Shown here piece after piece: positions 4,465 to 16,021 of a DNA stretch of 64,000 nt. The position numbers and the translations under genes are program-made. Origin of the DNA: Streptomyces sp. NBC_01460 (GTDB lineage Bacteria > Actinomycetota > Actinomycetes > Streptomycetales > Streptomycetaceae); assembly GCF_036227405.1 (NCBI RefSeq), contig NZ_CP109474.1, positions 70,671-134,670 on the forward strand. Direction: 5' to 3'. The notes beneath the pieces are model-generated. The model did not search any database and was not told where the DNA came from. It saw only the letters and a program-made list of their open reading frames with translations. The first letter of the stretch is position 1. The number at the start of each line of letters is the position of its first letter.

Positions 4465-5331
4465 GTGGCACGCATCGTCGGAGTACACGGAATTCGGCAG
4501 TCGCAGACGTCCAAGGCGCGGCTGACAGCGGAGTGGAGCAAGGCGATCAGCCGCGGGCTCGGCAGCATCGAGCAACCCGGCATCGGCTCAGGCGATCTGG
4601 AACTGCCCCACTGGACAGGGCTTCTGGCTCGCGGGGCCGACCGCCTCGGCGCAGAGGACGACCCTTTCGGCCCGGCAGCTCCCTTGAGCCAGGAGGAGAC
4701 GGCATTCGTCACCGACGCCTTGGAGGAGGTCGTCCACGGCGCCGAGTTGGCGACTTTCGAGGACATCGAGCTCCAGACACTGGGATTGCCTCGCTTGTGG
4801 CCGGCCCGCCTCACCCGACTGGTGATGGCGTACGACCAGCGATATCCCCGCGGCGGAGGCAAGCTGTTCGTCTCCGCGATGCGCGAAGTGCGGTTCTACC
4901 TCTACGAGCCCGGCCTTGCGGCGCGTGTCAGGGAGCAGGTCGCCGATGCCTTCAGCGAGGACACCTCCGTTGTCGTGGGGCACTCACTGGGCAGCGTGAT
5001 CGCCTTCGACCTGCTGCGTCGGAGCGAGATCCCCCCGGAGCGGGTGGCTCACGTACGCACCCTCGTGACGTGCGGCTCGCCTCTGGCGATCCCAGCGGTA
5101 CGCCGCGGGCTCGGCGTCACCGACGGCGAACCCTTGAAGCTGCCAGGTGACATCTCGTGGGTCAACGCCTTCGATCCAGGTGACTTCATCACCGGCGGCC
5201 GAGGACTGAGCGGCACCACACCGGCGATCGCCGACGCACAGGTCCGCAACGGGGTGGTCGATCCCCACAAGGCCCTGACCTATCTCCGGACCGCGCCGGT
5301 GGCCCACGCCATCGCGGGCGAGGAGCGGTGA
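4465..5331 (+). CDS. Alpha/beta hydrolase, coupled to the caspase-STAND gene
   Basis: A 288-residue alpha/beta-hydrolase-fold protein, probably esterase- or lipase-like. It opens with VARIVGVHGIRQ, the HG of an oxyanion loop, and has the nucleophile elbow GHSLGS with Ser174. Later segments FDPGDFITGG and VVDPHKALTYL could give the acid and histidine of the triad. No signal peptide or membrane helix is seen, so it is cytosolic. The GTG at 4465 was chosen because GGGGGAG lies 6-7 bp upstream; the open frame extends further up but would translate the 8-bp tandem repeat. The stop overlaps the next start (GTGA), so the two are co-translated. It may be a toxic lipase or a target of the neighbouring protease (inference). 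Confidence 0.85.
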   Translation: MARIVGVHGIRQSQTSKARLTAEWSKAISRGLGSIEQPGIGSGDLELPHWTGLLARGADRLGAEDDPFGPAAPLSQEETAFVTDALEEVVHGAELATFEDIELQTLGLPRLWPARLTRLVMAYDQRYPRGGGKLFVSAMREVRFYLYEPGLAARVREQVADAFSEDTSVVVGHSLGSVIAFDLLRRSEIPPERVAHVRTLVTCGSPLAIPAVRRGLGVTDGEPLKLPGDISWVNAFDPGDFITGGRGLSGTTPAIADAQVRNGVVDPHKALTYLRTAPVAHAIAGEER

Positions 5332-8300
5332 GCGGGCCGGTCGCTGACGACTGGGGCAGACGACGGCTCGTCGAAATCGCTGTTTCGGAGTACGACCGCG
5401 ACACCCATGAGACGCCGCAGGACCACGAAAACTTCAGGAAGGGCATCGAGGCCCAAGTAGCCGTCGTCGAGGAGTGGTGGGCTGCGGACAACTCTTCGGA
5501 CGAGCGACGTGGCTTCGAGGTCGTGAAGCCGAAGGGCATGCGCACTGTCCGCGATCTGCGCTCCTTTCTCGACGAGGAGGACCTGGCGGACGCCGACGAC
5601 GACGAGGTCCTCGTCGCCTACATCACCGGCCACGGCGTGAGCCGTGATTCCGAGATCCACTTCCTGCTCCTGCCCGACTCGGACCGGAACAGGGTCCTCA
5701 ACACCGCTTTCCAGACCGCCGAACTCGTCACGACCTTGCTGGACTCCCGCGCCACGCACGTACTCGTGATGGTGGACTCCTGCTTCTCGGGAGTTTTGAG
5801 AAAAGATCTGAGCAGACGGCTCGCCGCCCTCAGCGACGAGCGGCGCGGGCTCAAATCCCTCGTCGTACTGACGTCGGCTGACGAGTACACATCGCCCCGC
5901 CTCGAGGCCTTCTCCCGCCTCCTCAAGGCGACGATGACGCACTTCAAGACGCAGTCCGCCGGCTACGCCCTTCCCTACCTGAGCTACGAGGACTTCTTCA
6001 CCGCCATGACGAAGGTCTTCGTACCTTCACTCATGGCCGACGTGCAACCGGTATGGCCGGAGGAGTCGCTGCAACGTGACAAGGAACATCAGGAACCCAG
6101 CCCCTGTCTGCCCAATCCCGCGTACACAGCGGAGCCCGACGTGGTGGAACCGGCGCGCAGCGCCGTCGCCTGGAGCCCCGCCGACCTCGACTCGTACTGG
6201 CAGTCACGGGCGTCTGGCCGTCCGTCTCCCACCCCCGGGGTGACCGACTGGTTCTTCACCGGACGGGCAGCTCAGATGAGGCGCGTGACCGAATTCCTCG
6301 CAGGGGACGAGGGCACGCTCATCGTCACCGGGGAGGCCGGCTCGGGGAAGTCGGCGCTGCTCGCTCGAGCCGTCACCCTGAGCGATGCCCGGTTCCGGGC
6401 TGACGAGACCTACCGTCATGTCATCGAAGCGACCGAACCCGACCTCCTCGTGCCGGAGGGGGCGATCGACGCCGCGGTACTCGCCCGCAACGCGGACACC
6501 GACGAACTCACCGCCGCTCTGTACGAGGCGCTCACCGGTCGGCCGCCTGAACGAGGAGCCGGGGTCAGGACGGTCGACCTGGTCCTCGACCATGCCCTGG
6601 AGTACCTCCGTCGGGAGGGTCGGTCCCTGACCGTCGTCGTGGACGGCATCGACGAGGCAAGGAATCCGACCCGGACCATCACCGACCTCATCCGGCCGCT
6701 GTCCGAGCAGTGGTCCGACGACGGACGGCCTGCGGTGCGAATGCTTCTGGGCGTCCGCAGCGCGCACGCCCCGGTCGCGGGAAGGCTGCAGCCTTCCCGC
6801 GACCGGGCATCCGATCTGCTGAACCTGCTGGTCCGTTCCACGGAGTCCGGTGAACCGCTGCGGACGGACACCGGTGCCACGGCAGACATTGCCGCGTACA
6901 CAAGCACTCTGCTCAGGGCGTTGTCCGGACTGCACGACGACGCTGAACACCCTGACATCCAGCTACTGGACGAGCTCGCGGCCGCCGTGGCGGAAGAGGT
7001 AGCCCCTTCGTTCCTGGACGCCCGGCTCGCTGCGGAGTCATTGGAGAGGAGTAGCACCTTCCCGGACCCCGACAACCCTGAGTGGCGTGCCTCCCTACGC
7101 CAGGGCACCCAGCTGCTCCTGCTCCAGGACCTCGGAGAGGTGAGCCGCAACACCGGCCTGCCCGCCGAGGCCGTCATCCAGGTCCTGCGGGCCACAGCAC
7201 TCGCTCGGGGCGCTGGTCTCCCGTGGGCCGAGGTGTGGCCTTGCGCCGTGGCCGCACTCACGCCGGGGGGCCTCCCTGCACCTGCCGAGAGCGTGATCCG
7301 TCAGGTCCGGGAGAGTCGCCTCGCCGGCTATCTGACGACCGCTGTCGAGGACGGCCGGTTCGTCTACCGACCCATCCACGAACGTGTGGGAGAGCTGCTG
7401 CAGAGCACTCCCCACCTGCTCCTCGTCGAGTCCCTCACATCCGCTCATGTGCTCCCGGCCCAGGCGAACGTCGGCGAGGACCACCGCCGGCTGGCCGTCG
7501 CGTTCAGCTCCCTCCACGGACTCCAAGAACCCCACGACAGCCCACCGCACCCGTATCTGCGCCATCACCTCGTCGAGCACGCAGCGGCCGGCAAGGTGCT
7601 GAACGACAGCGTCGTCACGGAGACGTTCCTCCCGTACGAAACGAGCGGGAATGTGCGTGGGGCGCTCGGGCTGTTGTCGGAGCACACCCCGGACACCACA
7701 CGGCTGTTCGCGTGGACACGCATCGAACCGTTCCTGGGCGACGCTCCGCCTTCTGCACGCGCGGAGAGCCTGCGCTTCTCTCTCTGGGAGCATGAGGGAG
7801 GGCGCCCTGTGCGCACGCCCTCCCCAGGCCGTTCGGAGCCGGAATCCTCGGGGCGCCTCCGACCTCGGTGGAAAGACCTCGCTGTCCACGGCAACGTCCT
7901 GGCACGGCAGGAGGCACCTATCCACGCTCTCGCGTCGTTCGGCCTGCACGATGGGACGCCGCTGGTCGCGGTGGGCTGTGACGACGGCTCTGTGAGGGTG
8001 TGGGACCCCACCACCGTGACTCCTCTCGGTCCGCCGATCCAGGTGCACGGTGGGGCTGTCCGGGCCATGACCGTTGTTCCGGGCGCGGGCGGCCAGCCGT
8101 GGGTGGCCTTGGGGACGGACAGTGGAGTCCAGGCATGCGACCCGTTGGGTGGGGCGATCGTCGACCTGCCGGTGCGAGAACCTGTTCTCTGCATGTCCTC
8201 GTACACCGACGAAGACGGCCAGGTAGTGCTGGCGGTGGGTACGGCGGAGGGGCTCGTGCTGTACGACACCGTCGGAATCCGGCACGACACGGCCGACGCG

Positions 8301-15305: not shown

Positions 15306-16021
15306 CCGAGCCTCAAGCCAGCGCCCGTTTCGTGGCCACCCATAGCGTCCTGTCCATGGACACCCGGCATCCATACACCGCAAAGTCCCTCGTCGACGCG
15401 CAGGACATGCATCGCACCGTCATGAGCGGCTTCCGCGGCTGGGTGGCGGACGGCGACTCCGACGCCCGGGCACAGATGGGCATCCTTTCCACGTGGTCGG
15501 TCGACCTGAAGGAAGGGGTGCTCGTCCTGGTCGTGCAGTCCCGTGTAGCGGGGGACTGGGCCGGGATGCCCCCTGGAGCACTGACCGACAAGCCGCACGT
15601 CCTCACCGTCGACCGTACGCTGCGGGCCGGAGACTCCCTGACCTTCCGAAGTGTCATCAACCCTGTCCGCAGCCGGCCGTCAGGACCTCCGTCTCCCGAG
15701 CGCACCAGGGGCCGGCGCACTGAACACACGCGGCCCGACCACGTACGGAACTGGTTCGTCCGCCGCCTTCAGCCTCCGGGGGAGCCCCGAACGGGACCCG
15801 ACGGCGTTGTACGAATCGGTGCCACCGCAGAGGAGGACTCTCTGGCCGTCAGGATGCTTCCGGCAGTATCGAGCCCTGGTCATCACAAGGGCCTGCGGAT
15901 AGCCCGTGCAGAGATCCGAGGAACCCTGAAGGTGACCGATCCTGCTGCCCTGGTGGATGCCATGACGCACGGGATAGGGCATGGTCGGGCTTACGGGTGT
16001 GGGCTTCTGCTGACTCGGTGA
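15302..16021 (+). CDS. cas6e: crRNA-processing endoribonuclease Cas6e
   Basis: A 239-residue RAMP endonuclease that cuts the repeat hairpin and stays bound to the 3' handle. [14 protein letters not shown] supplies the catalytic-histidine helix, [13 protein letters not shown] is the characteristic middle motif, and [16 protein letters not shown] is the glycine-rich C-terminal loop. The GTG at 15302 sits in a four-base overlap with cas5. CRISPR array 3 starts 46 bp after the stop, in the same orientation. No cas1, cas2 or cas3 follows. Confidence 0.92.

Follow-up and report, generated by a model that had tools for sequence, protein, structure and literature searches.

Shmakov and co-authors in 2018 reportedly described minimal type I-E variants of CRISPR (clustered regularly interspaced short palindromic repeats) systems that lie next to STAND NTPases in Streptomyces. 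Such variants, devoid of cas1, cas2 and cas3, adjoin STAND NTPases and small membrane proteins, and cell death was proposed as their outcome, without experiment (PMC12231136); the STAND-linked minimal I-E module is also said to have no array (PMC8730458). In this work we analyze a type I-E Cascade operon and its neighbors in a 64,000-nucleotide stretch of DNA from Streptomyces sp. NBC_01460 (the window; C2:70671-134670 of a two-contig, 8.8-Mb, 100% complete genome). The initial annotation of this stretch, made from its letters alone, had mentioned cas3-less I-E loci with a STAND gene in Streptomyces surveys, and such loci are indeed in print (PMC12231136; PMC8730458).

The locus has in common with the published variants a Cascade without cas1 and cas3 beside a STAND gene (cas2 was outside the genome-wide search). 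It adds to them a caspase-WD40 type of STAND protein, a hydrolase, a dead Cas3-HD protein and, in four of five loci of this kind, arrays. A cas3-less I-E system beside a STAND gene is therefore already known. The version with caspase-STAND, hydrolase and dead Cas3-HD genes beside Cascade was not found in the literature covered, i.e., titles and the beginnings of abstracts, with most subscription journals and preprints lying outside.

We give about an even chance to the reading that the locus encodes a type I-E system that lacks Cas3 and has its output re-routed to cell death along the full chain of Cascade, dead HD protein, caspase-STAND protein and hydrolase. Our confidence falls slightly short of even for a more specific version, an RNA-guided, DNA-triggered caspase pathway. 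Here Cas3 would have been reduced to a dead HD adaptor, through which R-loop formation is signaled to an apoptosome-like caspase-STAND protein; the latter would activate the hydrolase.

Cascade, the Cas3-HD remnant and related loci

The genes of the locus are as follows (positions within the window; aa, amino acids).

4465..5331, plus strand, alpha/beta serine hydrolase of lipase/esterase type (invariant Ser174/Asp240/His268; AlphaFold model; weak lipase matches)
5328..9830, plus strand, caspase-STAND NTPase-WD40 protein, 1500 aa (domain models; H102/C152, K341, D439/D442/E443)
10011..10880, minus strand, dead Cas3-HD remnant (HD-motif ligands and the entire helicase lost; occupies the position of full cas3 in cas3-bearing loci)
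10953..12539, plus strand, cse1/cas8e (Cas8e model; conserved C-terminal sites retained)
12536..13144, plus strand, cse2/cas11e (Cas11e model)
13141..14460, plus strand, cas7e (Cas7e model)
14457..15305, plus strand, cas5e (Cas5e model)
15287..16021, plus strand, cas6e (Cas6e model)

The canonical five-gene operon of type I-E, Cse1-Cse2-Cas7-Cas5-Cas6e, is complete, as initially annotated, and each gene matches its model. The gene pairs cse1/cse2, cse2/cas7 and cas7/cas5 overlap by 4 nucleotides (nt) each, and the cas5/cas6 overlap is 19 nt. The start of cse1, previously placed at 10881, is probably at 10953, according to the annotation of a 138-kb circular plasmid of Streptomyces sp. NBC_00111, whose compared proteins are at least 99% identical to those of the window.

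Neither cas3 nor cas1 was found in the window, in agreement with the initial annotation, and a profile scan of the Cascade genes found no nuclease domain that replaces Cas3. When hidden Markov models were run over the whole genome, the best match to the Cas3 core model had 29.8 bits against a cut-off of 102.45, the Cas1 model had no match (Cas2 was not covered), and Cse1 was found at a single locus, that of the window. The same models in 14 control genomes gave above-cut-off matches to Cas3 in six, to Cas1 in nine and to Cse1 in two. A Cas3 encoded elsewhere in the genome and acting in trans on this Cascade, a possibility raised earlier, was not found, since no genome match reaches the Cas3 cut-off.

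A search for Cse1 yielded 36 loci (20 genome contigs and 16 regions from 17 plasmid matches, H16 being left out), which were classified by tblastn. Class A has the arrangement of the window, with hydrolase, caspase-STAND and HD genes beside Cascade; class B has a different, NACHT-type STAND gene, no HD gene and no nearby cas3; class C has a full cas3. Among 392 Streptomyces genomes, 28 have Cse1, and by its neighborhood three belong to class A, 16 to class B and eight to class C, with one fragment. Five independent class A loci are available: the window, L032, L067, L068 (its genome is shared with L011) and L012. L031, on the NBC_00111 plasmid, is nearly identical to the window and was excluded from this count. 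The class A loci are divergent and occur on plasmids and chromosomes. All five carry the hydrolase, caspase-STAND and HD genes, and none has an adjoining full cas3. Thus the expected co-occurrence with the hydrolase was observed, and the dead HD gene is part of it. As to a conserved association of the STAND gene with cas3-less I-E operons, it recurs in five divergent loci, but the hydrolase and caspase-STAND pair is mostly CRISPR-free, as detailed below.

The HD protein had been suggested as an additional part of the system. We identify it as the HD domain of Cas3, and its place in the system is supported more strongly than was proposed. HD-only frames among the 392 genomes are present in exactly the three with the class A arrangement. 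The H and D of the HD motif are lost in all 42 HD-only relatives found (42 clusters). The HD and cse1 frames are open in five loci and are under purifying selection, which for HD covers the five compared HD-only sequences. As a separate observation, 18 of the 42 relatives lie on equal-sized contigs, a hint of linkage only.

The HD gene (minus strand) and cse1 (plus strand) are divergent. With HD in a separate divergent transcription unit, the dead protein might serve as a brake that occupies Cse1 or restrains the STAND protein until R-loop formation displaces it. The presence/absence data are identical for a brake and for an adaptor, and nothing specific speaks against the brake. The adaptor is the simpler of the two, because in known systems Cse1 recruits Cas3 to target-bound Cascade (PMC7074321). 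We treat the brake as the least probable of the explanations considered here.

The tree of Cse1 (55 rows, computed without six exact duplicates and the fragment L139) shows class B, including L014, as a clade, with class A outside it and most cas3-bearing loci in between; its root is uncertain, and it does not establish class A as a single clade. Because classes A and B are separated in this tree by most cas3-bearing loci, Cas3 was probably replaced twice, subject to the position of the root. A 63-aa protein with a hydrophobic stretch is encoded in 13 of the 16 census class B loci. It had no tblastn match at E 1e-4 in the class A loci L011, L012, L031, L032, L067 and L068, a negative that covers this protein and does not exclude other small membrane proteins. 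The published minimal variant resembles class B with its 63-aa protein, NACHT-type STAND gene and lack of HD; array repeats are found near 21 of 31 class B loci, contrary to the array-less description (PMC8730458).

Three loci of the class B clade are worth recording. L014 has a full cas3, the class B STAND gene and the 63-aa protein together. L124 (G336:C12:616700-636600) has cas1 and cas2 matches and no cas3 adjoining the STAND gene, and may be a STAND-linked Cascade still able to acquire spacers. At L018:9323-9586 a 93-aa scrap of the Cas3 helicase lies upstream of cse1, at the position expected for cas3.

The hydrolase and caspase-STAND pair within and outside Cascade loci

The hydrolase and caspase-STAND genes overlap by 4 nt. 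The caspase part matches NCBIfam NF047832 (EACC1-associated type) with 52.4 bits and E 4.8e-14, under the curated cut-off of 140. The NTPase part matches AAA_16 above cut-off and nSTAND1 below it, and the predicted propeller is matched by a WD40 model. All 19 aligned sequences share His102, Cys152, Lys341, Asp439, Asp442 and Glu443 (the alignment omits L074 as well as L082 and L084, both without a caspase match), in line with the intact caspase His102/Cys152 and the intact Walker A/B NTPase of the initial annotation.

The Pfam matches of the hydrolase are weak and all under cut-off. Its AlphaFold model (predicted local distance difference test, pLDDT, 89.7) retrieved lipases with Foldseek at E 1.5e-3 and a template modeling (TM) score of 0.36, i.e., it loosely resembles lipases and esterases. 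A sequence search of the PDB with the hydrolase profile gave weak matches (best E 0.29). Ser174, Asp240 and His268 are invariant in all 21 aligned sequences (the duplicate L074 omitted) and, judging from the fold, would form the catalytic triad. The earlier assignment to alpha/beta hydrolases is consistent with these data.

The hydrolase has 20 matches in 18 of the 392 genomes; the two in G090 resemble copies. The 19 regions outside the window contain an NTPase match in every case and a caspase match in 17, and two of them adjoin Cascade. Seventeen of the 20 hydrolase matches stand apart from Cascade, and no Cse1, HD or array was found in the stretches examined around them. We therefore reject the view of the hydrolase and caspase-STAND genes as CRISPR-specific; the pair predates its CRISPR link. 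The five Cascade-linked hydrolases (three from the census, L032 and L012) form one clade, with support 100/99, nested among the hydrolases of free-standing pairs. A tree of the caspase-STAND proteins is in agreement, although less well supported (76/80). The trees thus point to a single capture event.

The many CRISPR-free pairs would suit a different explanation of the locus. Cascade with the dead HD protein might be an RNA-guided DNA-binding block that silences phage or plasmid genes, similarly to type IV-A systems, which are thought to work by blocking transcription (PMC12669027), and the hydrolase and caspase-STAND genes would then be an independent neighboring defense module. This is at odds with the one capture clade and with the retention of the same three genes at five divergent loci, both plasmid-borne and chromosomal. 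In addition, the STAND gene that accompanies Cascade in the other Cas3-less variant is a different one. We consider such a block rather unlikely.

The WD40 part has 33-35% identity to the two nearest free-standing relatives, as against 52% for the NTPase part; within the Cascade-linked group (L067, L068) the values are 54-57% and 62-65%. The stronger divergence of WD40 from the free-standing relatives would suit a guard, i.e., a STAND protein that monitors the Cascade-HD complex and releases its caspase when phage inhibitors disturb Cascade. Guarding by such proteins occurs in other defense systems. However, a guarded complex without Cas3 has no cutting function to inhibit, and some spacers match phage genes, so that a guard appears very improbable to us.

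One genome (G252:C1:3405132 and 11026906) has both a Cascade-linked and a free-standing hydrolase and caspase-STAND module. Some 30 kb separate the free-standing one from an I-E system that has Cas3 and a TnsB-like gene.

Arrays, spacers and the candidate protospacer-adjacent motif

Four arrays are present in the window (crRNA, CRISPR RNA).

280..430, minus strand, CRISPR array 1, 3 repeats (presumed crRNA strand, on the basis of the 5' handle ATGGTCCC and the protospacer flank)
3515..4068, minus strand (crRNA strand inferred), CRISPR array 2, 9 diverged repeats, between parB and the hydrolase gene
16068..16402, plus strand, CRISPR array 3, 6 repeats, after cas6e; carries the R4-like phage spacer
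26789..27061, plus strand, CRISPR array 4, 5 repeats, 10.8 kb downstream

The arrays lie in both orientations, as described before, and comprise 23 repeats in period-61 arrays. Their features are those of type I-E: 29-nt hairpin repeats and spacers of about 32 nt, some of which match mobile DNA beside a protospacer-adjacent motif (PAM). On the presumed crRNA strand, most repeats terminate in ATGGTCCC or ATGGCCCC. For the hairpins of 20 of the 23 repeats, 92.1% of cells are paired, and the covariation score was reached by 2 of 500 shuffles. Partners slid by -2 columns score equally (0.196 vs 0.195), so covariation lends modest support to crRNA processing.

At E up to 1, the 19 window spacers matched 97 phage records, of which 94 are named Streptomyces phages; the same spacers reversed gave no phage matches. 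One spacer, 16218 of array 3, accounts for 56 of 60 among the matches listed, with a best E of 1e-3. In R4-like phages its match lies in the gene for the major tail protein (29-30/33). Spacers 341 and 3638, which belong to different arrays, match close together in one gene of phage Tubberson (29/33, obtained by direct alignment to the phage piece and not by BLAST, and 27/34, respectively). Other spacers match dndC (30/32) and a sugar-nucleotide gene (30/33) on Streptomyces plasmids, and the remaining ones have weaker matches or none. Matches of whole-array queries to plasmids were dominated by repeats. We also note that four of the 19 spacers (341, 3638, 16218 and, weakly at E 0.7, 27000) have their matches in Streptomyces phage genes for major tail proteins. 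The seed-side flank is GAAC in four of the five protospacers checked and CCAC in the fifth. AAC is thus a candidate PAM, which fits the final C of the repeat; the active I-E system of S. avermitilis has an AAG PAM (PMC4762764).

The diverged repeats, the missing cas1 and the mismatched protospacers (2-7 mismatches) would also be expected of a decaying relic, that is, Cascade and arrays left from a once canonical, plasmid-borne I-E system whose cas3 is broken, beside an unrelated active module. The HD and cse1 frames, open under purifying selection in five loci, the 42 HD-only clusters and, as modest support, the repeat hairpins with 92.1% of pairs kept argue against decay, which we find quite improbable.

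Array 4 has five repeats in the window and two, with other spacers, at L031 32790-32879; arrays 2 and 3 nearly agree between the two. Recombination, loss or acquisition in trans could each account for the difference.

Genes parA and parB are located at 634-3023 (profile matches). The palindrome TTGTCCGCGGACAA occurs five times with zero copies expected, each within 208-3446, around and inside parAB. Palindromes had been counted among the possible additional parts of the CRISPR system; we reject this, since all five copies cluster at parAB and are probably parS sites of these genes. Tandem CCCGGTAT repeats are found at 4168-4212, upstream of the hydrolase gene.

A possible route to cell death and known systems

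In the re-routed system that we propose, crRNAs from the flanking arrays would guide Cascade to phage or plasmid DNA beside an AAC-type PAM. The catalytically dead, helicase-less Cas3-HD protein would dock on Cse1 of target-bound Cascade in place of Cas3. The caspase-STAND-WD40 protein would sense the docked adaptor, probably via its WD40 propeller, and its NTPase would oligomerize and free the caspase. The caspase may then cleave the hydrolase, its operon partner, and/or host proteins, and the predicted outcome is cell death or a growth stop.

The docking step can be compared with Cse1 sequences. Of 160 sites conserved in cas3-bearing loci, class A retains 153 and class B 123 at a threshold of 80% of rows, which flatters class A because class B is more diverse. 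The class B losses are concentrated beyond residue 326 (28 of 37). Residues D380, R388 and R393 are present in 13/13 class C, 5/5 class A and 0/31 class B sequences, which amounts to one evolutionary contrast and not 31, because class B is one clade. The residue counts omit five distant Cas3-bearing rows (L140, L045, L137, L138 and L030), and alignments of T. fusca Cse1 end before the region of these three residues. The two classes are closer in mean Cse1 identity to class C, at 53% for class A and 49% for class B. The retained residues hint that class A Cse1 has kept a docking surface for the HD stump, with D380, R388 and R393 as candidate contacts.

A number of observations weigh against the proposed route. 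Retention of Cse1 sites per sequence is 0.894-0.963 in class A and 0.755-0.906 (mean 0.856) in class B, and L014, which has cas3 and lies inside the class B clade, lacks D380, R388 and R393. The HD gene faces the STAND gene in convergent orientation and lies outside its operon, and two other conserved histidines of Cas3-HD are retained in 38/42 and 32/42 HD-only proteins. Elsewhere the hydrolase and caspase-STAND pair occurs without Cascade, and so a separate trigger may act on it at the window locus too. L012 has no array in the region examined, which leaves arrays in 4/5 class A loci, and 39 spacers of the sister locus L067 gave no phage match (20 further L067 spacers and 18 of L068 were left out of this search). 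The dominance of one spacer among the phage matches, the protospacer mismatches and the diverged repeats with missing cas1, which fit decay as well, belong here too. In relatives a Cas3 in trans is possible, since a second, separate I-E system, which includes Cas3 and a TnsB-like gene, is present in the sister genome G252, and two of six class B genomes checked have Cas3 above cut-off elsewhere. The S. acidiscabies genome has a helicase match of 96.7 bits, just under the Cas3 cut-off; no Cas3 match was found in the sister genome G200 or in strain NBC_01591, of which the plasmid alone was searched. Finally, the contact of Cascade or the HD protein with the STAND protein is a prediction.

If the proposed route is true, a DNA-cutting immunity has become a cell-death sensor by retaining just the docking part of its nuclease, and the result is a programmable DNA-triggered protease. 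The published guess about STAND-linked Cascades also becomes testable, since we name the adaptor, the residues on which it may dock, a candidate PAM and phage protospacers that occur in nature.

Loss of Cas3 from type I is shared with the I-E2 and I-F4 systems with HNH, which typically have no Cas3 and in which a nuclease domain substitutes for it (PMC12669027; PMC10910872); in contrast, the Cascade genes of the window have no replacing nuclease domain. Fusions of EACC1-associated caspases to STAND NTPases are known to occur (Kaur et al. 2020, PMC7159879). The caspase of the window may resemble this type, with its NF047832 match under cut-off, whereas the 5' gene encodes a serine hydrolase and not the membrane EACC1 protein of that two-gene system. 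An enzyme gene adjoining a protease is common to our locus and to the AVAST and Hachiman nuclease-protease pairs and the caspase-nuclease (canu) systems; in Avs1a the enzyme gene is directly upstream of a protease-STAND fusion, and proteolytic activation has been demonstrated in nuclease-protease pairs (PMC12799240). The window pair has an alpha/beta serine hydrolase instead of a metallo-beta-lactamase (MBL) nuclease, and is linked to Cascade.

In type III-E Craspase, Cas7-11 with TPR-CHAT, an RNA-guided complex drives a caspase-family protease, and a link of the same kind is proposed here. Unlike Craspase, the effector of the window is a five-gene I-E Cascade with no Cas7-11 or TPR-CHAT, and a DNA target is expected. 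The protease is carried by a STAND protein, and the Cas3-HD remnant is the possible link between the two.

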